Assembly (NCBI RefSeq): GCF_000024405.1
Contig: NC_013517.1
Span: 3,007,989-3,071,988 of the forward strand
Direction: 5' to 3'
DNA from: Sebaldella termitidis ATCC 33386
GTDB taxonomy: Bacteria; Fusobacteriota; Fusobacteriia; Fusobacteriales; Leptotrichiaceae
Length of the DNA: 64,000 nucleotides
Positions 2,460-63,911 of this stretch are shown here, in pieces. Position 1 is the stretch's first letter. Each line of letters opens with the position of its first letter. A model generated the notes under the pieces. It was not told the DNA's origin and did not search any database. It saw only the letters and a list, made by a program, of their open reading frames with translations. The position numbers were made by a program, and so were the translations under genes.

Positions 2460-5140
2460 TATTGAAGCCCTCCTCTCACCTGTGCTAATTTAAACAGACT
2501 TCCTAATGTTGTATTCTCATTAACTCCGTCAACATTTCTATTTAAATCTCCTATTTGTATAGTTACTGTGTCTATATTTGTAGACTCGTCAATATTTGTT
2601 GCACCATATCCTTCTGACGGGGATATCATCCCACCTGTTGTAATTCCTTTATTTCCTCCACCCTGTACCATATTCATAGCTTTATCTTTTATGCTACTAT
2701 ATCCTTCTTTCCATACTTTTGGATCTGTCCAGCCACCAAAAGCTTCTTTAATAAGTGCCAAATTTGATTTGTGTTGTACTTCTCTTATTACAGCTGTTTC
2801 TATTGCTTTTCTTTGTGCCTGAAATAATGAGGCTCTTTTTATTTCTTGAGAAGGATCAAATCCGATAGCTTTAAGTACATCATTTACACTTTTAATGATT
2901 TCCTCTAAGAACCTTTTGTCATCACCCGATCCTTTTTTTTCTTTTCCGCCTTTACCACCTTTTTTGCCATCATTGGCAGCATCTGTTGCTTTTCCCATTT
3001 GATCTTTCATTATATCTTCAAGTTCTTTTCCGGATTTTTCAGCATTTTTATTTCTTTGACCTAATGCTCCTGCAAAATTAACTCCTGATTTTTTTATATC
3101 TTTCGCAGTATTTCTAAAATCATTTTTTAAATTTGAATTTTGACCTTGAATATTTTGTACATTTACTTTTGTTGCATCTGCCATTTTAACGGTAGATTTC
3201 TTTATGCTTCCTTTAGCACTATTTATATTTGCTTCAAATCCTCCGGCATCAATTTTCAATTTTCCTAAAAAATCTCCTACCATTCCACCTAAAGCTCCGA
3301 AGCTATTAACCAAATTAATTACAGCATCAATTATGCTATTTATCGCATTGACAAATACAACAGCAATTTTATTAGCTGCAATAACTGCTGCTTGAATCAT
3401 TATGTTAGTTCCTTCTTGAAACCATACAACAAACATATTCCAAATAGCTTTTAAATATTCTGCATTCCCTGTGAATAAATAAGCTATCAAATTAAGCACT
3501 ATACTTGCCTGTCCTAATAAGAACCACCAATCCTCCACCAGAGTGTTAAAGAATTCAAGTGCAGCTTCAAGGATCATTCCAAATACTATTTGAACAGCAA
3601 GCCAAATCAATTCCCAAACAAGAGTTACAAAATTAAGAAAATCTTGCCAAGTTTGCTTTAAACTTTCAATATCACCTGTTATAAGCTCATATATCATTTT
3701 TATAATATACATATAATAAGAAAATGTAATGTAAAGTGCACCTAACAATAAATTAACTGCCTGATCTATAAATGGTTTTATTTGTTGCCATACTTCCTGA
3801 ATTTTTAATTTTATTGCATCCCACATAGCAATCCACCAATTTTTTATTTCAACTAAAGTAGTTTTAAAATCTTTTCCTTTATTGATAAATTGAGTGAATG
3901 CGTCTAACCAAGGAAGCAATGTTGAATCTCCACCTTCAAAACCTTTTTTCAAATCCTGCCAAGCCCAGATTAAAATCATTACGGCTGCTGCTATAGCTAA
4001 TATTACGGCTGCTATGGCTAATAATACAGGATTTGCAATTAAAGTAGAAGCAGCAGCTGAAACTGCTAAAAATCCTAATGCTAATACTCCCAATGTAGCC
4101 GTTAATATGGTAAAACCTACTATTAACCCAAATATAACTTTAGATAATGCAGGATTTTTCTTTAAAAACTCTCCTATTTTTTCAATAGTAGAATTCAATC
4201 CTTTCAAAAAACCGTTAATAAGTTCTTTATTTGCTTCATATAAGTTAAATTTTAGTGCTGTTAATGAATCTGACATATTAGAAACTATACCGTTTGTTTC
4301 ATTCATTTGGACTGCCATTGAACCAGCAACACCATCCATTGCTCCAAACTCTAAAAGAGCTTTATACATTTCGTCAGCTGTCGCTTTTATTGTCTTTGTC
4401 TGCCCCTTAAAATCTAGTGTAACTTGATTTCCTGCTTTACGAGCTTTTATACCGAATTCTTTTAGTCTTTCAAATTCCATCATCTGAGCATCTAATATGG
4501 CTTCTATCCACATATCTATTGGTTTAGCTTGTGAAGATGCCAAATCTCCAAGATTTGTCATTTGATCTTTAGTTGGTATAATTCCTCTATTTACTAATTT
4601 AAGAAATGAACCAGACAATTCATCAAGTTCATAGGGTGTCTCTTCTGCAAATCTTTGAATTTGTTGGAACATTTGTTCTCCAGCTTTTTCACTTTGTAAA
4701 GCATTTTTATATACGGACTGGATCTGTGACATATTTCCGCCCGTTGTTGCTATATCTTTTATAATATTCCCTGAGCTTCTAGCTGCGGAAATTCCACCTA
4801 TAGCAGTAGCTCCTTGTTGTAACATTTCTCCTGTATCTACTTTTTTTGGCGGTTTTATTTTCTGAGAATTAGCAGCAACTTTCCCGGCTTCTTTGGCTGC
4901 ATTTGAAAAACTTTTTGTTACCCTGTCAATATTCTTTTTCATAGAAGAAGTGATATTAGAGGCACTTTTTAAAGCTGTCAATAATCTACCTGGACCATTT
5001 GCATTTAAATTAGCCACTCCACTTTTAAGCATTTTTATAGCTTTTAAAGCTCGTGATATTTTTTTTAATACCTGATCTAAGCTTTTTTGATCTAATTTAG
5101 CCTTAATATCTACATAACCGCCTGCAATTGCTTCTGCCAC
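2459..5140 (-). CDS. Tail tape measure protein
   Basis: This is an 893-residue protein. It starts at GTG 5140, chosen because AGAGGTGATATA precedes it at proper spacing. Residues ~1-130 are basic and helical. A tape-measure-like conserved block follows (EKAGEQMFQQIQRFAEETPY...ELDELSGSFLKL). Several long hydrophobic segments lie between ~330 and 640, and a Lys/Gly-rich linker lies near 735-755. Length, hydrophobic centre and location between chaperones and baseplate are diagnostic. It sets tail length and is ejected with DNA. It is unrelated in sequence to the repeat-built protein at 58569. Confidence 0.85.
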   Translation of the reverse strand: MAEAIAGGYVDIKAKLDQKSLDQVLKKISRALKAIKMLKSGVANLNANGPGRLLTALKSASNITSSMKKNIDRVTKSFSNAAKEAGKVAANSQKIKPPKKVDTGEMLQQGATAIGGISAARSSGNIIKDIATTGGNMSQIQSVYKNALQSEKAGEQMFQQIQRFAEETPYELDELSGSFLKLVNRGIIPTKDQMTNLGDLASSQAKPIDMWIEAILDAQMMEFERLKEFGIKARKAGNQVTLDFKGQTKTIKATADEMYKALLEFGAMDGVAGSMAVQMNETNGIVSNMSDSLTALKFNLYEANKELINGFLKGLNSTIEKIGEFLKKNPALSKVIFGLIVGFTILTATLGVLALGFLAVSAAASTLIANPVLLAIAAVILAIAAAVMILIWAWQDLKKGFEGGDSTLLPWLDAFTQFINKGKDFKTTLVEIKNWWIAMWDAIKLKIQEVWQQIKPFIDQAVNLLLGALYITFSYYMYIIKMIYELITGDIESLKQTWQDFLNFVTLVWELIWLAVQIVFGMILEAALEFFNTLVEDWWFLLGQASIVLNLIAYLFTGNAEYLKAIWNMFVVWFQEGTNIMIQAAVIAANKIAVVFVNAINSIIDAVINLVNSFGALGGMVGDFLGKLKIDAGGFEANINSAKGSIKKSTVKMADATKVNVQNIQGQNSNLKNDFRNTAKDIKKSGVNFAGALGQRNKNAEKSGKELEDIMKDQMGKATDAANDGKKGGKGGKEKKGSGDDKRFLEEIIKSVNDVLKAIGFDPSQEIKRASLFQAQRKAIETAVIREVQHKSNLALIKEAFGGWTDPKVWKEGYSSIKDKAMNMVQGGGNKGITTGGMISPSEGYGATNIDESTNIDTVTIQIGDLNRNVDGVNENTTLGSLFKLAQVRGGLQ

Positions 5141-7447: not shown

Positions 7448-8328
7448 TAATTTCCTCCTTTTACTTCCATTTCATTATCTACAAACAATATGTTTTCTGT
7501 TTCATATGGTCTGTAAACTTCTATTAAAAAATCTACATTATATACATCATGTGTATATGGAATTTCACTTAAATATGTTCCTTCCTCTTCTATATTCCTT
7601 ACTCTTGTTCTTAAATTTATTTTCCGAAAATTAGTTAATGACTCATTATATATAAAATCATGAAACATTCGTGGTTTATTTAGCAAAAATAATAGTTCGT
7701 CTATACTTGAATAGTCATTATGATTTCTAAAAACTTCAATAGTAAGTGTATAAGTTATTAAATGTCTTATTATTGACTGCTTACCTTTCACAATATTCTG
7801 GCTATCTATTTCTTGTTTGTATATATGAAAAACAAGCTTAGGATATTTTTTATTGTCACTTAATTCTGTTGATCTCAAAATATTTATTTTGGGATCTATT
7901 TTTGCTTTTATAATTTTATAGAAAAATGAATACAATTCTTCTAATAATCCTGTTCTATTTTCAATATCCGGATTATATAGAGCTGCTTTAAAAGCTATGT
8001 AAGAATCATTATCCCAAACTTGAGTTATTAAAAAATCTTTTTCTTGGTATACAATCAAGTCATTTTCTGAAATAACAAAATCACTATCTATTGTATTATC
8101 TACTTCTTTTCTTGCAATAATCGGTGATATGACTTCAAATTTAAGCCCTGAGACTTCTTTATGCCCTATATTAGGATTTGTCTCTGAATAAACAATATCT
8201 TTTGTATGTGCCATAATTATGTAATTTTCATAACTTATAACCTGTTTTCCATCCACATAATCTGTTATAGCCCTTTTTATTTTGTATTCTTTTCTATTTA
8301 ATTTTAATGCAGCTTCATTAATCATCAT
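7447..8328 (-). CDS. Neck / tail terminator-like protein
   Basis: This 293-residue protein sits between a gp10-like protein and the sheath, where head-closure and tail-terminator genes are found. The C-terminal half (~130-293) looks like a neck terminator: an N-terminal helix (LLEELYSFFYKIIKAKIDP), a strand (YPKLVFHIYKQ), then ITYTLTIEVFRNH and a final VYNVDFLIEVYRPYETENI strand. The N-terminal half may be a head-closure domain, so two usually separate neck proteins may be fused here. That fusion is inference. Confidence 0.5.
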   Translation of the reverse strand: MMINEAALKLNRKEYKIKRAITDYVDGKQVISYENYIIMAHTKDIVYSETNPNIGHKEVSGLKFEVISPIIARKEVDNTIDSDFVISENDLIVYQEKDFLITQVWDNDSYIAFKAALYNPDIENRTGLLEELYSFFYKIIKAKIDPKINILRSTELSDNKKYPKLVFHIYKQEIDSQNIVKGKQSIIRHLITYTLTIEVFRNHNDYSSIDELLFLLNKPRMFHDFIYNESLTNFRKINLRTRVRNIEEEGTYLSEIPYTHDVYNVDFLIEVYRPYETENILFVDNEMEVKGGN

Positions 8329-8810
8329 TTGCTCCCATAAAATTTATTATTTACCTTATATCCTAGACTTTTTGCTAATGTTCCTGTTTCATAAAACGGC
8401 ATATCAAATCCTTTTTTACGTGTAGTTGACTCTGCATTTCCAGGATTAAAATACCCTTTATAGATTTCAAGCCTAACCATTTTCAAAAGCTTCTTCCCGG
8501 CTTTATGTCCTATATCTTCTGTTTTCAATGAACCTTTGCTCACCCTTGCAAACCCACTTGTAAGCTCTTTATTTATCTGTTCCTGATTATCAGATAATGT
8601 ACTTTGCAAGATGGGTCTGCCAGGTATTGTTACACTATGATTTCGACCAGCTCTATTAGTTCCTTTAGTCAATGTTTCCATTAATCCAATAGCATCAAAC
8701 CCTTTTCCAATTTTATAATTGTTTTCTGAAAACATTCCAACAGAAATAGTAACAGGTTTTATCATTTCATAATAAATTGGTTTTTTAACCATCTTGACTT
8801 TGACTTCCAT
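8325..8810 (-). CDS. gp10/gpG-like neck or virion morphogenesis protein
   Basis: This 161-residue basic protein contains HSVTIPGRPILQSTL, the Arg-x-Pro...Arg-Pro-(Phe/Ile)-Leu pattern common in Mu gpG/HK97 gp10-type neck proteins. An amphipathic helix follows, then a C-terminal MPFYETGTLAKSLGYKV where a tail-joining helix is usual. Start at ATG 8810, overlapping the preceding small gene. Likely role: joining head and tail. Confidence 0.5.
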   Translation of the reverse strand: MEVKVKMVKKPIYYEMIKPVTISVGMFSENNYKIGKGFDAIGLMETLTKGTNRAGRNHSVTIPGRPILQSTLSDNQEQINKELTSGFARVSKGSLKTEDIGHKAGKKLLKMVRLEIYKGYFNPGNAESTTRKKGFDMPFYETGTLAKSLGYKVNNKFYGSK

Positions 8811-9006
8811 TTTGTTCGCCTTCTTCTTTTTTAGAATTTTCAGCTATCTCTATTTCTAATTGGCGATCTTTAATTACTTTTTTTGTTCTTTCAAGTTCCA
8901 AGTCTGATAACTCTATACTGTTATTTCCTTTTTTTATTTCTATTTTCCTCCCTGTCTGAGGTATTATAATAAGTTCTTCTTTTTTACTGCTTATTTTATA
9001 TTTCAC
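8785..9006 (-). CDS. Small structural-cluster protein of unknown function
   Basis: This is a 73-residue charged protein with an early beta pair (ELIIIPQTGRKIEIKKGNNSIEL) and an acidic/Gln-rich C-terminus. Its first half resembles that of the small protein at 9427 (short strands, then SIELSDLELERTKKVI versus LELEDNEIKELK). Both may be small capsid-surface or neck accessories. No family recognised. It overlaps the next gene by 26 bases. Confidence 0.5.
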   Translation of the reverse strand: MKYKISSKKEELIIIPQTGRKIEIKKGNNSIELSDLELERTKKVIKDRQLEIEIAENSKKEEGEQNGSQSQDG

Positions 9007-9019
9007 TTTACACCTCCCA

Positions 9020-9424
9020 TTACGAATAAATATTTAAGAAATTTTGTGGTAATTTTGCTAAATCATCCGTATTTTCAAATTTTTCAGTATAAGGTCTTAT
9101 CAATACTTTAAATTGTTGTCCGAAAACAGTTTGATCAAATCCTAATCCATCAGAAGTCTTTATAAAATTCGTTGAATTCTCAGGTAAATTAAATTGATTT
9201 ACCTTATATCTGTCTATGTTTATTAAAACCAAATGTTTAGAAAGATATTCTTCTAAAATATCTTTTATTGACTCTATGCCTTCTACATCAGATAACATAA
9301 CTTCAGATTGATTTATATAATGTTGAATATCGTCATCACTCATCTGATATGTGTAGGAACCATCAACTTCTTTTGTTTCTAGTTCAATGATTCCTCGTCT
9401 TATATCTTCAATACTTACTCCCAT
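9020..9424 (-). CDS. Head-tail connector / adaptor protein (gp6-like)
   Basis: This 134-residue protein is encoded soon after the capsid gene. The N-terminal helices DDIQHYINQSEVMLSDV and IKDILEEYLSKHLVLINIDRY fit the all-helical gp6/YqbG-type adaptors that dock on the portal. The C-terminus is loop-rich (FNLPENSTNFIKTSDGLGFDQ, LAKLPQNFLNIYS). The call rests on position, length and helical N-terminus. Confidence 0.55.
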   Translation of the reverse strand: MGVSIEDIRRGIIELETKEVDGSYTYQMSDDDIQHYINQSEVMLSDVEGIESIKDILEEYLSKHLVLINIDRYKVNQFNLPENSTNFIKTSDGLGFDQTVFGQQFKVLIRPYTEKFENTDDLAKLPQNFLNIYS

Positions 9425-9426
9425 AA

Positions 9427-9663
9427 TTAAACATTCCCTTGTTCAAAGTTTATTTTATCTACCTCTTCCTGCAGCTTTTCTCTATCTGTTGTATTTGATA
9501 TTTTAAGAATTTCTTTCTTAAAAAAATAATGTGTTTTAAGCTCTTTTATTTCATTATCTTCAAGTTCTAACACTTTCGCTCCTGGAACTATGCTGACAAT
9601 TTTCTTTTCTAAAGGTATTTTTATTACACTCTTAGTTCTATTTATAATTGCAATCTCTTTCAT
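9427..9663 (-). CDS. Small capsid-cluster protein of unknown function
   Basis: I chose ATG 9663 because AAAGGAGAGAAT lies directly before it; an ATG at 9678 overlapping the capsid stop lacks such a site. The 78-residue product has short beta strands (KEIAIINRTKSVIKIPL) and an acidic helical C-terminus. It may be a capsid accessory, but I recognise no family. Confidence 0.5.
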   Translation of the reverse strand: MKEIAIINRTKSVIKIPLEKKIVSIVPGAKVLELEDNEIKELKTHYFFKKEILKISNTTDREKLQEEVDKINFEQGNV

Positions 9664-51153: not shown

Positions 51154-51184
51154 TATTGCTTTTTTGCAAAAAAAGAGTTATAAT
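51154..51184 (+). promoter_or_regulatory. Repressor promoter with overlapping dyad
   Basis: TTGCTT (51156-51161), 17-bp spacer, TATAAT (51179-51184). The dyad TATTGC-TTTTTT-GCAAAA (51154-51171) covers the -35. A related dyad lies at 52052. Confidence 0.7.
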
Positions 51185-51201: not shown

Positions 51202-51855
51202 ATGAATAAATTAGAAGCGCTTGGTAATAAAATCAGAGAATTGCGTGAGAGAAAAAACTGGTCTCTTGACAGGCTTTCAGAAGAGCTTGAGAAAGAAGAT
51301 ATCGATATTGTTCCTTCTACTTTATTTAGAATAGAAAAAGGACAGAGAAAAAAAATCGATACTCTCCTTCTCCTTGGTCTTTCCAAAATTTTAAATTATA
51401 ATTTCTTTCAAATGCTCGACAGTCAGATTTTCAGATCTGAAGATTATATTGAAGTAGATGATCAGAAATTATATATTTACGGTTTTGCTTCTGCGGGAAA
51501 CGGATATCTGGATACCACAGATTATGAAATTATGGAAGTTTCACTTCCAAAAAATATAAGACATAAAAAAGGACTTTTCGGAATTAAAGTTCACGGAGAA
51601 AGCATGGAACCCGAATTTTACAATAACGATATTCTTATCCTTGATCCTTCATGTCCTGAATGGGAAGAACTAAACAATAAGGTTATTGTTGTAGATCTGA
51701 ACAATGAAAGATACGTAAAGCTTTTGAAGTATTATAACGACGGCAGAGCTTATCTTTTCAGCTATAATGAGATTTACCCCCCTATTCAGATCACGGAAAA
51801 TGATAATATTAAATGTATCGGAAAAGTCGTTTACAGTTTTAGATCATACTCATAA
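51202..51855 (+). CDS. LexA/CI-like repressor with intact S24 peptidase
   Basis: This is a 217-residue repressor. The N-terminal HTH (~5-60) has NKIRELRERKNWSLDRLSEEL. The C-terminal S24 domain has the cleavage-type Ala98-Gly99 in FASAGNG, catalytic Ser134 in GESMEP and Lys173 in YVKLL. All parts for RecA-stimulated self-cleavage are present, so DNA damage should induce this locus, unlike the first prophage. Start ATG 51202 follows GGGTGAT. Confidence 0.88.
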   Translation: MNKLEALGNKIRELRERKNWSLDRLSEELEKEDIDIVPSTLFRIEKGQRKKIDTLLLLGLSKILNYNFFQMLDSQIFRSEDYIEVDDQKLYIYGFASAGNGYLDTTDYEIMEVSLPKNIRHKKGLFGIKVHGESMEPEFYNNDILILDPSCPEWEELNNKVIVVDLNNERYVKLLKYYNDGRAYLFSYNEIYPPIQITENDNIKCIGKVVYSFRSYS

Positions 51856-51921: not shown

Positions 51922-51950
51922 TTGACAAAAAGCAACAAAAATGTTATTAT
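51922..51950 (+). promoter_or_regulatory. Strong promoter of the tail-locus early genes
   Basis: TTGACA (51922-51927), 17-bp spacer, TATTAT (51945-51950), reading toward the zinc-ribbon genes. Confidence 0.75.
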
Positions 51951-52051: not shown

Positions 52052-52069
52052 TTTTGCTAAAAGGCAAAA
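52052..52069 (+). promoter_or_regulatory. Candidate repressor operator
   Basis: TTTTGC-TAAAAG-GCAAAA, a perfect 6-6-6 dyad related to the one at 51154, about 100 bases past the early promoter. Confidence 0.55.
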
Positions 52070-52142
52070 TCATATTCAATAAGTTAATTAATTATTAAAT
52101 ATATTAACACACAAAATAATAAATCGAAAGCGGGGAATGAAT

Positions 52143-52292
52143 GTGATAAAAATACAGATACGTTGTAAAACCTGTGGTAAATTGCATATGGAAATTGAGG
52201 TAGAGGGAAGAGTAAAATATGATTTTAAATGTAAAAGGTGTAAAAATACAAATATAGGAGTAATAACACAAAAATTTAACAGTACAACTTAA
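52143..52292 (+). CDS. Com-like Cys4 zinc-ribbon protein, copy 1
   Basis: This 49-residue product has CKTCGK and KCKRCK pairs (Cys8, Cys11, Cys30, Cys33), like Mu Com-type small zinc fingers that bind RNA. GTG 52143 is chosen because it aligns with the ATG of copy 2 and is well spaced from GGGG; an in-frame ATG at 52137 is possible. A 13-base leader CGAAAGCGGGGAA (52125-52137) is shared with copy 2, and a structured element follows the gene. Confidence 0.7.
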   Translation: MIKIQIRCKTCGKLHMEIEVEGRVKYDFKCKRCKNTNIGVITQKFNSTT

Positions 52293-52298
52293 AATATC

Positions 52299-52348
52299 AG
52301 CGTCCCAAGCGGACCTTTCGTATAGAAATATGCGCAGGGTCTCTTTTT
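52299..52348 (+). ncRNA. Structured element / terminator after zinc-ribbon copy 1
   Basis: The block starts AGCGTCCCAAGCGGACCTT, shared with copy 2. Inner hairpin CGTATA-GAAA-TATGCG (52319-52334); outer arms AGCGGACCT (52308-52316) and AGGGTCTCT (52336-52344) pair partly, followed by T-rich sequence. It may act as terminator and as an RNA-protein site. The stretch 52349-52585 after it shows no feature. Confidence 0.6.
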
Positions 52349-52602
52349 ATTACCAAAGCTATCTTTGCAGGCTTATACAATACTAATAATTTTGAATAAA
52401 GTGATAATTTCTAAAAAATGTTTAATTTGTTCACACTTACTTCATATATTCCCTATATAATGAAATATACACATATATCATACATAATTATCATTAACTA
52501 TTAGTTCTCATTTACATCATGTTTTCATTTTAAAAAATATAGTTTTTTATTTTCCATAAACAAAAAAATTAATTCTATTAATGAACGAAAGCGGGGAACA
52601 GC

Positions 52603-52752
52603 ATGATAAAAATTGAAATACGATGTAAAACCTGCGGGAAACTGCATATGGAAATTGAAGTAGAAGGAAAAGTAAAGTATGATTTTAAGTGTAAAAAATG
52701 TAAAATTCAAAATGTAGGAATTATAACCAAAAAATTTAATCAAATACTCTGA
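52603..52752 (+). CDS. Com-like Cys4 zinc-ribbon protein, copy 2
   Basis: A 49-residue paralogue of copy 1, about 80 percent identical by eye, with all four Cys kept (8, 11, 30, 33). The ATG follows GGGGAACAGC. The leader CGAAAGCGGGGAA (52586-52598) is identical to that of copy 1. A recent duplication of the whole leader-gene-hairpin unit is likely. By analogy with Mu Com it could bind an mRNA hairpin; that is inference. Confidence 0.7.
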   Translation: MIKIEIRCKTCGKLHMEIEVEGKVKYDFKCKKCKIQNVGIITKKFNQIL

Positions 52753-52802
52753 ATTACTATATCATCAGATTTTATGATTAAATTCATTGGTAAACAGAAA
52801 AC

Positions 52803-52855
52803 CAGCGTCCCAAGCGGACCTTCTGTATAGAAATATGCAGCAGGCCCGCTTTTTC
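52803..52855 (+). ncRNA. Structured element / terminator after zinc-ribbon copy 2
   Basis: Inner hairpin CTGTATA-GAAA-TATGCAG (52823-52840). Outer stem AGCGGACCT (52813-52821) with AGGCCCGCT (52842-52850), eight of nine paired, followed by TTTTT. Relative to copy 1 an inner C-G pair is T-A here (52824-52839), a compensatory change. Confidence 0.65.
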
Positions 52856-52919: not shown

Positions 52920-53708
52920 ATGAATTCTATCACTAAAAAATATACTTCAAACAAAAGAAAGACAAAATATCTCTTTGCCCTGATGAGTGACATAAATCTT
53001 ACAGAAGGCCATCAAAATCTAAAACTAGCAGAAAAACACCTGAAGGAAGCCAAAGAAAAAAATGCAAGAATTTTGCTTAATGGAAATACTCTTGATTTTT
53101 TTAAGGAAAATAAAAATTTTTATGCAAAAAGAAATCCTGAAAGTGAATTTCAAAAAAAACTCAGTATTGATTTTGCATATGAATTTTTAAGACCCTTTGC
53201 TTCAAATATTGACTTTATCTCATACAAAGACAGCGAACTTATAAATACACTGCCTTTGAAAAAGCTGACAAGCAGATTAAATTACAGCATGGACACCAAT
53301 ATTATCATATGTCCGTCCAAAAACTGGCTTACCTTAAATTTTCAAATGGGTCACTCCGGGTTTAAATACAGAATTTTTTCTGATGAGGGAAAAACTAAAT
53401 CACCTGTTACCAAAGGCAAAATCCAGCACAGCAGACTTGCTCAAAAGATTGACGGTGCAGATGTCATCTGGCTTTTTGGCAAAAACAGCGACTATGAACA
53501 CAGCCGTATTATCGAAACTTTAAATCCAAAAAATGAAATTCTTCATAAAGAAATTCTGGAATTAAGAACACCTTCATATTATAAGAAGAAAAATGATAAA
53601 ACAATCACTGAAATCCCAGAGTCTTCAGGCGGGAGATGGCTGGAAATAGAGCTTCACAGAACTGATAAATTCGGTATTCTAATGACACATAAAAGTTACA
53701 AAATCTAA
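52920..53708 (+). CDS. Phosphoesterase-like protein with lost catalytic residues
   Basis: This 262-residue protein has the layout of a calcineurin-like phosphoesterase, but each catalytic motif is altered. SDIN (24-26) replaces Asp-x-His, LNGNTLD (56) replaces Gly-Asp, SYKDSE (~101-106) replaces Gly-Asn-His-(Glu/Asp), and LFGKNSD stands where Gly-His-x-His is expected; MGHSG (His145) is kept. The family call is by pattern only. If right, it is a pseudoenzyme, perhaps binding nucleic acid. GGAGGAAATT precedes the ATG. Confidence 0.4.
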   Translation: MNSITKKYTSNKRKTKYLFALMSDINLTEGHQNLKLAEKHLKEAKEKNARILLNGNTLDFFKENKNFYAKRNPESEFQKKLSIDFAYEFLRPFASNIDFISYKDSELINTLPLKKLTSRLNYSMDTNIIICPSKNWLTLNFQMGHSGFKYRIFSDEGKTKSPVTKGKIQHSRLAQKIDGADVIWLFGKNSDYEHSRIIETLNPKNEILHKEILELRTPSYYKKKNDKTITEIPESSGGRWLEIELHRTDKFGILMTHKSYKI

Positions 53709-53741: not shown

Positions 53742-53951
53742 ATGCTTGCAATAACAATTATAATATGTATCTTTTTATTTTTAACTACTGCTCTTATACT
53801 AAGCACTATTGAAAAAAAATACATTGTTAATGATGAACTTGTAGAAATACTTGAAAACCTGAATGAAAGAATCATAATACTTGAAAAAAAATCTAATCCT
53901 GACAGTAACCCTTACTTTCATAAAGGAGGAAGCAATGAAAAAACAATATAA
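53742..53951 (+). CDS. Small membrane-anchored protein (69 aa)
   Basis: One N-terminal membrane helix (LAITIIICIFLFLTTALIL), then a coiled-coil-like LVEILENLNERIIILEKK and a polar tail. It sits shortly before the amidase gene and could be a lysis accessory, but the single helix gives no firm call. CGGAGGTAAAACC precedes the ATG. Confidence 0.5.
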   Translation: MLAITIIICIFLFLTTALILSTIEKKYIVNDELVEILENLNERIIILEKKSNPDSNPYFHKGGSNEKTI

Positions 53952-54360
53952 AGAATATAAAGTCTTTGATAAGGATATTTCTGAATTTATGCTTTCTGAG
54001 GAACTTTCCTTCTATACACACGAAGAAATTGAAATAGAAACCATTGAAGATATTTATGATCTTAATATTACCGATCTGAAAAAAATTATCAATGAAAAAA
54101 TAGAAGCCGGATCTTTTACAGATTTTCTAGAAAAACTATGCAGAAACAGACTTTTGAAAATTATTCCCATGCTTGTTTTAGATGAAAAGGAATTCTTTGT
54201 TTATGATTCATTTTATAAAAACAAAGAAACTCAGAGTGAAATAGGGAAAAAATTAGGAGTTACACGACAATCCGTAAATAAAGTAGTAAAAAAAATAAAT
54301 GATAAATTTGATTATGCCGGAAAGAACATAACTTTACACTATTATGAAGAAATAATATAA
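53935..54360 (+). CDS. Sigma-region-4-like transcription regulator
   Basis: Start ATG 53935 after AAAGGAGGAAGCA, overlapping the previous gene by 17 bases. The 141-residue protein has an N-terminal helical part and a C-terminal HTH: YKNKETQSEIGKKLGVTRQSVNKVVKKI reads like sigma70 region 4 / ArpU-type activators. Identical promoter-like boxes lie 0.6 kb downstream before the structural genes. A late activator is the likely role. Confidence 0.6.
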   Translation: MKKQYKEYKVFDKDISEFMLSEELSFYTHEEIEIETIEDIYDLNITDLKKIINEKIEAGSFTDFLEKLCRNRLLKIIPMLVLDEKEFFVYDSFYKNKETQSEIGKKLGVTRQSVNKVVKKINDKFDYAGKNITLHYYEEII

Positions 54361-54387: not shown

Positions 54388-54945
54388 ATGAAATATAACG
54401 AAGTAATAAAAAGACATCTTACCATTAACAAGAAGAGAACGGGAAAAAAACTAGATTTCAAATGGATCACTGTACATAACACCGGTAACCCGAAAAGCAG
54501 TGCCGATAATGAAAGACGCTGGCTTGATAATCCTGAAAACACCACATCTACCGGCTGGCATATTGTGGTAGACGGAAAAGAAGCTATTGAAGCAGTTCCC
54601 CTTGATGAAATAGCTTATCATGCCGGAACAGGCGAAGGCAATTCCACAAGCATTGGAATAGAAATATGTGACAGTGCGGGAACTGCCGCTGAAAAACAGG
54701 CCGTTGAACTTATCGCGGATCTTTTGATAAGAAAAAACTGGGGAATCGATAAAGTCCGGACACATAAATCTTGGAGCGGGAAAATCTGTCCGCATTTAAT
54801 CCTTCCCAGATGGAATCAGTTTACCAAAGATATTGAAGAGGAAATAAAAAAACAGAAATCTCTTTCTGGTGCTGACGGCTCTTCTAAAAAAGAGATTGAG
54901 CTCTTTGATAAATCAGGAAATTTACTCGGAAAAATTATACTGTAA
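54388..54945 (+). CDS. N-acetylmuramoyl-L-alanine amidase (Amidase_2)
   Basis: This 185-residue lysin has WITVHNTGNP (His30), STGWHIVVD, IAYHAGTGEGN, SIGIEICD (Glu92), VRTHKSWSGKICPHL (His126, Cys134). These give the zinc ligands and catalytic Glu of type-2 amidases. The ~30-residue C-terminal tail may bind the wall. It cuts the MurNAc-peptide bond and would release particles by lysis. The stop lies inside the first promoter box. Confidence 0.9.
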   Translation: MKYNEVIKRHLTINKKRTGKKLDFKWITVHNTGNPKSSADNERRWLDNPENTTSTGWHIVVDGKEAIEAVPLDEIAYHAGTGEGNSTSIGIEICDSAGTAAEKQAVELIADLLIRKNWGIDKVRTHKSWSGKICPHLILPRWNQFTKDIEEEIKKQKSLSGADGSSKKEIELFDKSGNLLGKIIL

Positions 54946-55729: not shown

Positions 55730-56200
55730 TTGAATACTTTTGATATTACAAAGTTACTGAAAGGTGAAGCCAGAGCACTTATTCTGGAAAATGTCAATAT
55801 TACCGACATACATATTTATGATGATGACTTCACCAACAAATCAGATATACAGAATAATGATTCAATTATTCTGTATTCTGTAAGACTCTCCAAAGCATAT
55901 GAAGGTTTTGTTAATTATTTAAGTAATGACAAATCTATATGCAATCTGGTTTTTGAATCTTCTGTCACTCTTCAGACCAGAGACGAGTCAGTGAACCTTG
56001 GTGATCTTATGCTCTACATTTCAAATGACAGAGAAATCACCAAAAGATTTTCAAATTCCCATAATAAACTGGAAAAGAATATAAAAAATATCACTCCTAT
56101 TCAGAATTCCAATTTTATTGAGAACGATCAAAAATGGTTCAAACAGATTTTAACATTTAATTTTATTTACGAGGGGGAATATACAAATGGCAATATATAA
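55730..56200 (+). CDS. Tail terminator-like protein
   Basis: A 156-residue protein starting at TTG 55730, chosen because GAAAGGAG lies at proper spacing and no ATG is near. It sits just before the sheath gene, the place of the tail terminator that caps the tube. The C-terminal WFKQILTFNFIYEGEY strand fits. It overlaps the sheath gene by 14 bases. Call by position. Confidence 0.5.
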   Translation: MNTFDITKLLKGEARALILENVNITDIHIYDDDFTNKSDIQNNDSIILYSVRLSKAYEGFVNYLSNDKSICNLVFESSVTLQTRDESVNLGDLMLYISNDREITKRFSNSHNKLEKNIKNITPIQNSNFIENDQKWFKQILTFNFIYEGEYTNGNI

Positions 56201-57320
56201 GCCTACTTTAAACTTTTTAAATACTGTAAAAGTTGAGACAAAATACTCAAAGAGTTACGTACAGGATCCTAGAGATGCTCTGTTTTTATCCACTGTAAAA
56301 GACGTGGAGCCTACTATCATTACTGAAGCCGCTGATTTACTGGAATTAGGTTTTGCCGCTTCTGATGTTATGTATAAGAAAGTGGCTGACGCTCTGGCTC
56401 AGGGAGGGATAGACACAATTATAGTTTATGGTGTAGATGTATCTGCTGATGCTGTTAATCTCACACCTGAAAGAATTATGGAAAAGTATGAAAATGAACC
56501 GGCTGCATTAAACTACTCTATTCTTATACTTGATGTAGTTAATCTGGAAAATGCTAAAAAATGGGCTGCTGCTTTTAAGCCGTTAGTTGATTCAAAGCAC
56601 CTTTTTGTTCAGCTTGATAAAGTAAATAATACTTTGACAGATATAGAAGCATTCAGAGCTGCTTATGCCGCTGCAAATATAACTACTTTTATAGCTGATA
56701 ATGATGAAAATATTGATAATGTGGATGCTATTACATGGGCAAGAATGAGAAACAGAGATTTAGGATCATATATTGTTCACTCTACTGAGGTAAGAGGTGT
56801 TAGACAACCAGATTTTACTAAAACTGAACAGGTTACTATGAAAAATGCCGGTCTAAATTTTATCTCCAATCCTATAAGAGGAAAATTCCATATACAGAAC
56901 GGACTTGCCAATAACGGCGAGCCTGTAGAACTGCATCTTTATAAATTATGGGAATTGTGGACATTAAAAGAAAGACTTACAAGACTGCAGATAGAAATTG
57001 ATAAGATTCCTGTTAACCAAAGCGGTTTTGAAATGATAGAAGCTGTAATAAAAGGGGTTGTTTTTACTGCTAAGAATATGGGAATTGCAAAATCTGTCAA
57101 TGGAGATCCTTTTGCTATTGAAAGTAAAACAGATTCAGATGGAAATACCGTTAACTATTTGTTAGGTAAAGTAGAATTACAATTTCCATCTGAAGAAGAT
57201 ATCAGAAATTCTGATTTCAAATTCAGATATTTCCATACTTTATTAGATGGAGTAAGACATGTTGATGTAGCCGGATATATTTCACAAACCGGGGAACTTG
57301 TATTAGGAGGTAACAAATAA
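56187..57320 (+). CDS. Tail sheath protein
   Basis: This 377-residue protein shows a sheath layout. TIITEAADLLELGFAASDVMYKKVADALAQGG near residue 35 matches the early domain of DUF3383/XkdK-like sheaths (compare SLQELIDLGFTDTDLAYRYV in the prophage sheath). The end ...HVDVAGYISQTGELVLGG is the C-terminal strand that interlocks subunits. The next gene is the tube. Contraction drives the tube through the target envelope. Confidence 0.8.
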   Translation: MAIYKPTLNFLNTVKVETKYSKSYVQDPRDALFLSTVKDVEPTIITEAADLLELGFAASDVMYKKVADALAQGGIDTIIVYGVDVSADAVNLTPERIMEKYENEPAALNYSILILDVVNLENAKKWAAAFKPLVDSKHLFVQLDKVNNTLTDIEAFRAAYAAANITTFIADNDENIDNVDAITWARMRNRDLGSYIVHSTEVRGVRQPDFTKTEQVTMKNAGLNFISNPIRGKFHIQNGLANNGEPVELHLYKLWELWTLKERLTRLQIEIDKIPVNQSGFEMIEAVIKGVVFTAKNMGIAKSVNGDPFAIESKTDSDGNTVNYLLGKVELQFPSEEDIRNSDFKFRYFHTLLDGVRHVDVAGYISQTGELVLGGNK

Positions 57321-61669: not shown

Positions 61670-61982
61670 TACACTAAAAGAAAATAATATAAGAATACTT
61701 TTAAATGATGGAACTAACAATAAAATTATTAAATTATCCCTTTATTGTATAAGAAATAATTGGTATGTTGATATTTATGACAGCACTACACCTTTACTTT
61801 TAGGGCAAGTTTTAAATACATGGATTGATTTATTTGAAATTATAAAAATCCATTATAAAAACTTTCCAAATTTACTTCTCACTGCTTTACCGTCTAACAT
61901 AAATGGAATTAACAAGGAATTCAACAAATCTGTTGCTGGTATAACACAAGAAATATTTATAGTAGGAAATTCAAATGAATAA
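61641..61982 (+). CDS. Baseplate plug-like protein (DUF6983 type)
   Basis: A 113-residue protein with IIKLSLYCIRNNWYVDIYDSTTPLLLGQVLNTWIDLFE. This is the N-x-x-W-Y-x-D-I-x-D...L pattern of Pam3 gp18-like plug proteins, which seal the tube end at the baseplate. It overlaps the previous gene by 29 bases, with GGAGGTG before the ATG. Confidence 0.55.
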   Translation: MLSKISLEYNTLKENNIRILLNDGTNNKIIKLSLYCIRNNWYVDIYDSTTPLLLGQVLNTWIDLFEIIKIHYKNFPNLLLTALPSNINGINKEFNKSVAGITQEIFIVGNSNE

Positions 61983-62901
61983 AAAAGAATATCATTTTAA
62001 CAGATATATCAAGCTCATATTTACTTTAATGGACGGTGAAGAAACTTATGAGTTTGAACTTGATACTAGTTTCATAGATATAGAAACAAAAGTTAGTCTA
62101 AGTACTAATATCGAAAAAGATGACCATGCTATTTATTCAAACAAAGCTTCTATTACTATTTATAATCTTCCATTAAAAATAAAAAACGAATTGCTTGAGA
62201 ATACACCTGTTACAATTACTGCAGGATATCTTGATCTTCCAGAAACTCAAGGAGTAATTTATAATGGAATTATAGAAAATGTATCTGAATCTTCAGATGG
62301 AGTGACTTCGAGAACTCAAATTCAATGTAGTGAGGCTAATGATGAATTTCAAAAACTAAAATATATAATTTCTATAAAAAAAACACAAGTAAAAGCCAGT
62401 GAAGTTTTAAAACGTATTTCCGAACATAGTAAATTAGAATTTGAAATCCAAAAGCTAGGAATAGATCTCATATATACAAGGGCCAGAACTTACAACGGAA
62501 CATTGAAACAAATAATACAAAGTATAGCCAGAGACACAAACAGTCATGCATTTATAAGCAGAAGAAAAATATTTTTTTTGGATAATAAAGAACCTGTACT
62601 TGATGAATTAATCTGTGATATTGAAAAAGTAAAAAATATTACAGAGACTGATACCGGGTATTCTATTGACATGATTTTTGATCATAGAATGGAGCCAAAT
62701 TATAATTTAAGTATTAAATATGAAGGAAATCGATTTAAAAAATCTTTAGAAGGAATATACAAAATAATAAGAGTTGAACATGACCTTAGTGCTCTAAATA
62801 ATTCTTTTACTTCCAAAATAGAACTTGAAGATAGTTTAAAAAGTATACAGACTAAAGAAAAAAATGAAAATTATCCAAAAGAAATTAAAATTGAAATTTA
62901 G
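61975..62901 (+). CDS. Baseplate hub protein (gpD/XkdQ-like)
   Basis: A 308-residue protein with the hub N-terminal pattern SLSTNIEKDDHAIYSNKASITIYNLP. VTITAGYLDLPETQGVIYNGIIENV follows, then a C-terminal part with IRVEHDLSALNNSFTSKIELED, all typical of hub proteins under the spike. It overlaps the plug gene by 8 bases. Confidence 0.72.
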   Translation: MNKKEYHFNRYIKLIFTLMDGEETYEFELDTSFIDIETKVSLSTNIEKDDHAIYSNKASITIYNLPLKIKNELLENTPVTITAGYLDLPETQGVIYNGIIENVSESSDGVTSRTQIQCSEANDEFQKLKYIISIKKTQVKASEVLKRISEHSKLEFEIQKLGIDLIYTRARTYNGTLKQIIQSIARDTNSHAFISRRKIFFLDNKEPVLDELICDIEKVKNITETDTGYSIDMIFDHRMEPNYNLSIKYEGNRFKKSLEGIYKIIRVEHDLSALNNSFTSKIELEDSLKSIQTKEKNENYPKEIKIEI

Positions 62902-62910
62902 GAGATTTAT

Positions 62911-63549
62911 ATGAGAAAAAGTTTAGATTATATTTTTCAAAAAAAACAAAAAGATTTTTATGAAACATTAAATAATATCAATACAATTGCTTTAGCAAGA
63001 ATAATTGAAGTAGATAATCAGAAATTAGAAGCTAATATTCAGCTAACTGCCAAATCTGAATTTAGGGGTCAATTTATTGAAGAAGGCCCTATTTATATGG
63101 TTCCTATTCTTCCTATTTTTAATTCTTCTAATTTTTTTATTAATGCTCCTTATGAATCCGGTGATTTAATTGTTGTTGGATTTTGTCAGCACTCTCTGGA
63201 AGGAATAATTGATGAAACTGATCAAACTGAACCTTTATCAAAAGATAAATACTCACACAATGATGCAATTATTTTGGGTAATATTACTTCTCAATACAAG
63301 GATTCATTTCCAAATGATATATCTATCCTACATAAAAATACAGGAAATTATATTCGAATCACTTCTGCTGGTAATATAGAAATACAAGGAGATACTAAAA
63401 TAATTGGAAGTCTAGAAGTAACTGAAAAAGGAAAATACGGTGGATTACTGGAATCGAATACTGATGTACAAAGTAATAACGTCAGCCTAATAAATCATAT
63501 TCATACAAATGTGACATCAGGCTCTGAAAATACAGGAGGTCCAAAATAA
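62911..63549 (+). CDS. Central spike protein (Gp138/gpV-like)
   Basis: A 212-residue protein with an N-terminal OB-like domain (~20-110: ALARIIEVDNQKLEANIQL, MVPILPIFNSSNFFINAPYESGDLIVVGF). A beta-helical shaft follows (NYIRITSAGNIEIQGDTKIIGSLEV) and a tip NHIHTNVTSGSENTGGP with His-x-His that can bind a metal ion, as in phage spike tips. It pierces the target outer membrane. Confidence 0.75.
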   Translation: MRKSLDYIFQKKQKDFYETLNNINTIALARIIEVDNQKLEANIQLTAKSEFRGQFIEEGPIYMVPILPIFNSSNFFINAPYESGDLIVVGFCQHSLEGIIDETDQTEPLSKDKYSHNDAIILGNITSQYKDSFPNDISILHKNTGNYIRITSAGNIEIQGDTKIIGSLEVTEKGKYGGLLESNTDVQSNNVSLINHIHTNVTSGSENTGGPK

Positions 63550-63911
63550 TGAAAAGTAATGAAAATTGGTTAATGGACAATACAGGTGATATAAAAATCA
63601 AAAAAAATATTATATTAACTGAACCTGAGGAAACCATTGCACAAAGATTACAAAATAAAATTTCTCTTAATTATAAAGAATGGTTTCTTCATGAAAGCGA
63701 AGGAGTAAATTGGTTTGGAACAGAAAATTTAGAAGGAAATATTGGAAAAAAACTGACTGAACTTGTACTTGATTCACAAATAAAAAACTATATAAATTCT
63801 GACAAGGATGTAAGTAAAATTTTAGATTATACAACAGATTTTTCAAATAATGGAAACTATAATATTAAAATTTCTATTGCTACTAACAAGAATGGAATAA
63901 TAAAAATTTAA
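63549..63911 (+). CDS. gp25/XkdS-like baseplate wedge protein
   Basis: A 120-residue protein starting in the stop of the spike gene. ETIAQRLQNKISLNYKEWFLHESEGVNWFG is the helix and E-G-V-x-W core of DUF2634/gp25-like proteins, which link the baseplate to the first sheath ring. Confidence 0.8.
   Translation: MKSNENWLMDNTGDIKIKKNIILTEPEETIAQRLQNKISLNYKEWFLHESEGVNWFGTENLEGNIGKKLTELVLDSQIKNYINSDKDVSKILDYTTDFSNNGNYNIKISIATNKNGIIKI

Follow-up and report, generated by a model that had tools for sequence, protein, structure and literature searches.

A compact pair of genes and RNA elements stands in front of a phage-tail operon in this genome, and we consider it probable (about 60%) that the element is a transcription attenuator responding to a protein, with the Com-like zinc ribbon encoded upstream acting as its cognate RNA-binding protein and opening the late operon. 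Across unrelated phages the element has mutually exclusive helices that covary, a U-tailed terminator form and a linkage to both com-like genes and late operons. This suggests that the pair is an on/off switch, so far undescribed, for the phage and phage-tail assembly genes that follow it. Little is known of how phages and tailocins switch on their late genes in Fusobacteriota and in many anaerobes. If our reading is right, a 50-residue protein and a 55-nt RNA gating an entire operon would amount to a new module for late-gene control, and many phage proteins annotated as 'Com' or 'zinc-ribbon' without a mom gene would gain a function. Being compact, the module would also serve as a genetic part, and it lends itself to a direct test that takes a single protein and a single RNA.

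The window, by which we mean the whole stretch of 64,000 nt that was analysed (G000:C1:3007989-3071988, from a genome of 4,486,650 bases in three contigs), holds two units between an HTH/S24 repressor and a contractile-tail operon. In each unit a leader precedes a com-like Cys4 ORF and a structured element follows it, and the genes, leaders, elements and promoter given here are all on the + strand. The repressor (51205..51855), an HTH and S24 peptidase protein of LexA/CI-like type upstream of the module, matches Pfam Peptidase_S24 at 3.5e-20 and PHROG phrog_4 (transcriptional repressor) at 2.4e-36. A consensus scan gave a candidate promoter at 51922..51950, TTGACA-17-TATTAT with TG ahead of the second hexamer (11/12 matches), whose first hexamer falls inside a match to the site TTGACAAAAAGCAA (51922-51935). 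Together with window positions 51156-51169 and 52054-52067, this makes three TTGC-N6-GCAA-like sites around the repressor gene and the candidate promoter, possibly an operator set; loose matches to the operator-like 14-mer across the whole window are about as many as in shuffles. The overlap of the promoter match at 51922 with TTGACAAAAAGCAA, and the like sites at 51156 and 52054, suggest that the first transcript may be under repressor (SOS-type) control.

The first unit comprises leader 1 (AAAGCGGGGA, 52125..52137), com-like ORF 1 (52137..52292) and attenuator element 1 (52297..52348), which has a small hairpin at 52302-52314, a terminator hairpin at 52311-52342 and a U tract at 52344-52348. 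It scores 71.9 bits with R1, a covariance model of the terminator structure built from seven com-adjacent copies, and 65.2 bits with R2, a second model built from 19 elements. The second unit is 84% identical to the first across 136 nt and comprises leader 2 (52586..52598), com-like ORF 2 (52603..52752, 49 aa) and attenuator element 2 (52802..52855; small hairpin 52807-52819, terminator hairpin 52812-52851, U tract 52850-52854; R1 85.9 bits, R2 79.1 bits). Comparison with 21 com-like genes makes both leaders likely ribosome-binding regions. The window elements have predicted folding energies of -16.6 and -21.6 kcal/mol, with z of -2.1 to -4.7 over four overlapping fragments. The initial annotation had given each copy a 49-residue Cys4 ribbon. 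Both do carry CxxC...CxxC and the length is right for ORF 2; ORF 1 reaches it only from an in-frame GTG at 52143 and has 51 aa from its ATG.

The first gene past the second candidate gate (52920..53708, 262 aa) has weak database matches, below cutoff, and its product looks by eye like a metallophosphatase or an exonuclease in which the metal ligands are altered (SDIN, NGN). Farther on are a sigma-70 region-4-like HTH protein (53935..54360; phrog_351, 2.4e-6), an amidase or endolysin that belongs to the putatively gated operon (54388..54945; Pfam Amidase_2, 3.1e-18; phrog_3088, 1.1e-42), a contractile tail sheath (56187..57320; phrog_205, 1e-11), a baseplate hub (61975..62901; phrog_196, 1.7e-37) and a baseplate wedge subunit (63549..63911; phrog_120, 1.7e-13); past the end of the window the cluster goes on with genes for baseplate and fibre proteins, followed by a gene for DNA repair. 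No terminase, portal or capsid was found among the scanned proteins from the repressor onward (a subset of ORFs plus three proteins of locus L174), which makes the cluster look like a tailocin. A small protein at 57320-57757 matches a family classed as head and packaging.

The 19-mer AGCGTCCCAAGCGGACC occurs at 52299 and 52804 and is absent elsewhere in the window even when up to 3 mismatches are allowed (shuffles: mean 0). It had been described as a hairpin with a GAAA loop; the element is indeed present twice, but what the 19-mer contains is the small hairpin GUCC-CAAGC-GGAC together with the 5' arm of a larger hairpin with a U tail, and the GAAA loop sits in that larger hairpin. The inner C-G pair that was said to become T-A between the copies does so (C52319-G52334 in copy 1, T52824-A52839 in copy 2). 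A genomic copy with two mismatches, AGCATCCCAAGCGGATC, lies directly 3' of another com-like gene at 62145, and since both of its changes retain the stem (GUCC/GGAC to AUCC/GGAU), we infer a small hairpin whose 3' arm doubles as the 5' arm of the terminator.

With R1, R2 and DNA patterns, 27 distinct elements were collected, whose sources are genomes of Fusobacteriota, a single Clostridia-class genome and phages of IMG/VR. Every one of them has a U-tailed terminator hairpin and a hairpin of 4 bp with a 5-nt loop, and the 3' arm of the small hairpin is the 5' arm of the terminator (alignment columns 15-18 are common to both). The structure used for fitting the alignment omitted the small hairpin. 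In the alignment of all 27 elements (A6), 97.2% of the 108 small-hairpin cells are nevertheless paired (105/108), and 19 cells are changed on both sides, compared with a shuffle mean of 4.9 and none of 500 shuffles as high, although related sequences entered as separate rows, so that such counts overstate independent events. The covariation score of the small hairpin is 0.564, against at most 0.138 for slid partners, and column pair 7-17 is UA in 18, AU in 3 and GC in 3 elements. Pairs with a double change and further pair types do not rise above shuffles in A6 (339/500 and 363/500); in the smaller A4 set, the count of pairs with a double change was reached by 10/500 shuffles. The terminator helices have 95.9% of 439 cells paired and double changes in 12 of 17 pairs. 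The small-hairpin loop is mostly CAAGC or CAAGA and is closed by C-G in 20/27 and U-A in 7/27 elements, with columns 4, 8 and 16 invariant. Loop sequences of L103 and L175 differ from the rest, and an A-A mismatch in L101, L102 and L108 leaves just three of the four pairs able to form.

Default folds range from -15.6 to -29.6 kcal/mol in 20 of the 21 elements folded. Forcing the small hairpin gives -7.6 to -16.5 kcal/mol across the 21, some 4-14 kcal/mol weaker than the default in 20 of them, and so a trapping factor would be needed. The exception is L042:1426-1485, for which the default fold (-9.6 kcal/mol) contains the small hairpin and the terminator form is not the predicted minimum. As both helices covary, the element looks like a genuine two-state attenuator, in which a terminator hairpin with a U tract is paired with a mutually exclusive alternative helix backed by covariation.

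An HMM built from 12 com-like proteins and run over 2,031 ORFs of element-bearing loci places a com-like ORF upstream and on the same strand for 20/27 elements, at a distance of -3 to 3,227 nt. Because the HMM contains proteins from several of the tested loci, hits there are not independent, and the fair test is given by the loci outside the HMM that were found through the RNA model or a DNA pattern alone (L152, L175, L176, L178, L179 and L180). All six have a com-like ORF, ending -3 to 172 nt from the element (HMM E 4.9e-9 to 0.025); two genomes of a single genus supplied L178 to L180. Among the loci examined, few small ORFs carry two CxxC pairs (21/1,065), and those that do are mostly com-like genes. 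Conversely, 15 com-like matches turned up in six of 60 Fusobacteriota genomes, of which 14 matches are followed by an element at most about 4 kb downstream. The initial annotation had made its reading hinge on the hairpin being kept beside homologous genes, and in both directions it is. The genes behind the element include terminases of distinct PHROG families (3717 and 2, 10250, 9, 15, 5902), portals (PHROG 156, 12) and tail sheaths (PHROG 205, 23), and the presence of such different late operons behind the same pair suggests a portable control module.

The sole com-like match without an element among the 15 is L033/L110. There (L110, about 8239-9530), the com-like gene is followed by what by eye is a RinA/ArpU-like regulator, and a simple terminator precedes an apparent small terminase gene. 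The Pfam-Com-like Clostridia loci L130-L149 have no element either (best 17.9 bits), which rules out that the broad Com family is always linked to one; with L033/L110, they imply that Com-like proteins also have other roles. Two of these Clostridia-class loci, L130 and L135, encode very short Com proteins (about 40 aa), beside a head-region gene at one and a ParB-like gene at the other (by eye), and would seem to represent a different Com subset.

Seven of the 27 elements have no com-like ORF upstream. L106 and L108 have just 47 and 1,083 nt of upstream sequence, and in the other five (L100, L109, L177, L102 and L158) a com-like ORF could have shown; the record of L158 spans 26.4 kb and holds none. 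Three of the five are one orthologous tail locus, with 1.6 kb of upstream sequence for L177. In this tail operon of three genomes (L100:6649-6706, L109:6199-6255, L177:5475-5532) the element has the form GGCU-CAAGC-AGCC, an additional upstream repeat is complementary to the 3' arm and no com-like gene is nearby; these elements may be served in trans. At L102:6065-6124 (G000:C1:2770564), likewise without a com-like gene, the element lies upstream of apparent two-partner-secretion haemagglutinin genes, the putative transporter of which has no PHROG match, and the gene ahead of it resembles the gene ahead of the prophage element in L108.

C8, C11, C30 and C33 are invariant in 12 aligned com-like proteins (CxxC...CxxC). 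These proteins have the traits of the PF10122 type, namely a Cys4 ribbon, 40-80 aa and a phage-borne gene, and their contexts are phage or tail. For the window proteins, PF10122 Zn_ribbon_Com is not listed at E up to 1 (curated cutoff 22.9 bits), and of 17 distinct com-like proteins one passes, that of the viral contig L025 (28.4 bits vs 22.9), with L152 (17.6), L175 (16.4) and L180 (15.3 bits) under the cutoff. The L025 protein also matches Com of Pseudomonas phage B3 (E 9e-3), and for the window proteins PHROG phrog_6417, 'translational regulator', gives weak matches (ORF 1 at 1.5e-4, ORF 2 at 5.1e-3). The likeness to Com that the initial annotation had noted is borne out at Pfam level by the element-linked L025 protein and not by the window proteins themselves, and its proposal of a regulatory pair of protein and hairpin is partly supported.

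In the attenuation that we favour, the nascent RNA would by default form the long U-tailed hairpin, and RNA polymerase would halt just ahead of the late operon of tail or head genes. The Com-like protein from the upstream gene would bind the small hairpin N4-CAAGC-N4', rather than the GNRA apex, and since the 3' arm of this hairpin is the 5' arm of the terminator, the trapped hairpin would block the terminator and allow read-through. The order com1, gate, com2, gate, tail operon in the window would place two gates in series, so that the first protein would open both, giving a switch with positive feedback or a delay.

It is highly improbable that the element is an ordinary intrinsic terminator which accompanies com-like genes and has no regulatory fold; the initial annotation had itself weighed a simple terminator against its reading. 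The terminator form is thermodynamically dominant, as it would be in that case, but the second helix covaries and the loop is conserved, a comparable small hairpin is found in 24/27 elements vs 1/79 other terminator-like hairpins of Fusobacteriota loci, and a fixed stop just ahead of the late operon would silence it. It is also unlikely that the protein acts with the opposite sign, by binding the terminator form (for example the A-GNRA-U apex) and stabilising termination as negative feedback on late genes. This apex is present in 27/27 elements, with several GNRA letter variants, vs 2/79 of the same other hairpins, and according to PMC6483171 Mu Com contacts a GA dinucleotide. However, the terminator is already the stable default, and the covarying small hairpin and its conserved loop would be left unexplained.

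There is a small chance that ribosomes ending the com-like ORF, and not its protein, set the fold, with a ribosome at the stop codon covering the small hairpin. Of the 20 linked elements, 11 have the com stop at a distance of -3 to 15 nt, with an overlap in L178 and L179, so ribosomes may influence the fold in these 11, but in the other nine the distance is 50 to 3,227 nt. A ribosome covering the small hairpin would moreover disrupt it and favour termination, and neither the constant zinc-ribbon ORF nor the kept loop CAAGC/A would be accounted for. We likewise give little credence to an antitermination signal acting in cis or through a host factor, like HK022 put RNA or EAR, with the Com-like protein controlling something else such as late-gene translation. 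The five elements without a detectable com-like gene would fit such a signal, and RNA-only systems are known (PMC8955417). Against it stands the tight linkage to a com-like ORF in unrelated late operons, including 6/6 of the blind loci, and against an action on late-gene translation the position of the next gene's ribosome-binding site, which by eye is outside the element in L025, L121, L105 and L101.

Among known systems, LicT/SacY RAT and HutP are protein-dependent terminator/antiterminator attenuators. As in these, an RNA-binding protein would stabilise a small hairpin with an arm overlapping the terminator, but here the protein is a zinc ribbon and the setting is phage and tailocin late operons. 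According to PMC6483171, the loop motif bound by Mu Com is CC(N)2-3GAG, on a short hairpin that is closed by C-G and partly overlaps an inhibitory structure. On that description, com/mom resembles our pair in having a small Cys4 zinc protein encoded just upstream of the putative RNA target, and in having as target a short hairpin whose loop of 5-6 nt is usually closed by C-G and which overlaps an inhibitory structure; the element-linked L025 protein, in addition, is a Pfam Com member. Compared at the level of sequence only, L101, L102 and L108 read CC-CAA-GAG at the Mu Com motif and most others CC-CAA-GCG. In contrast to Mu, where a hairpin hides the start codon, the inhibitory structure here is a U-tailed terminator, and instead of mom it is followed by terminase, portal or tail genes. 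In the single com-like locus of a Pseudomonas phage that was analysed, L069, R2 found no element. Searches of open-licence PMC papers turned up none in which a Com-type protein is described as working at a terminator, which is weak evidence of absence.

According to PMC8955417, conAn of pLS20 (ConAn1 protein and conAn2 RNA) is a bipartite protein-RNA antitermination system at the start of a long operon, a make-up and position that our proposed pair would share. However, the gene that, from its position, is presumed to open the operon region (pLS20 2564-3082) does not encode a zinc ribbon, and pLS20 1-50000 has no element by R2 (best 16.5 bits), so that identity with conAn finds no support in the first 50 kb and the one presumed gene compared. 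A scan for + strand terminator-like sites behind the window gates found none, and the same scan also missed both elements. Of other antiterminators, put is RNA alone, Q and AlpA are loaded at sites in the DNA, and we know of none among put, Q, P7 and AlpA that combines a zinc ribbon with a covarying attenuator. The likeness of HK022 put RNA, lambda Q, P7 and AlpA to our pair is that they are reported to govern entry into phage operons at terminators (PMC9378689, PMC6606751, PMC6624301, PMC9371919).

A broader reading, which we put forward tentatively and regard as rather doubtful, is that Com-type zinc ribbons are widespread phage antitermination proteins and have a dedicated attenuator RNA, so far undescribed, which they open before many phage and tailocin late operons; Mu com/mom would then be a specialised relative and the window tandem a two-gate, self-amplifying timer of tailocin release.

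The leader CGAAAGCGGGGAA is identical at 52125-52137 and 52586-52598, as had been stated at the outset, with no further exact copy and one 2-mismatch match in the window. Its place in the unit does not extend beyond the window in general: it is present in 9/21 com-like genes, all from one Sebaldella clade, in which a tenth AAGYGG match is a chance site. The leader is therefore ruled out as a component of the protein-RNA pair, and is likely a clade-specific ribosome-binding region. By eye, it is like the 5' arm of the terminator only, and a pairing with the 3' arm was ruled out, being kept neither in copy 1 nor in the copy-1 orthologue.

Rfam gave no match in the window at the gathering score, and at permissive thresholds the best match was rli56 (22.6 bits vs 47). 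Two gapped patterns found no match in viral contigs, the first of them being one T too long for the known example. Antisense matches to the terminator stem in the A3 alignment were dropped, as were L172 (genome G469) and the weak match L120, which on inspection have no small hairpin and non-phage neighbours. The exact core pattern across genome contigs gave 16 stretches, two of which (L022 and L023) have an element by R2, and in the viral scans 1/4, 2/9, 0/9 and 1/2 stretches were element-bearing by R2. The viral contigs with an element are L025, L152, L158 and L169, the last a copy of L105 and dropped as a duplicate. Of the Fusobacteriota genomes, 10/98 had a match, one of which (in G469) was later dropped. 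Eight of the nine Clostridia-class R2 matches proved on inspection to be plain terminators, and L121 alone has both hairpins and a com-like gene, giving an element in 1/391 genomes of that class.
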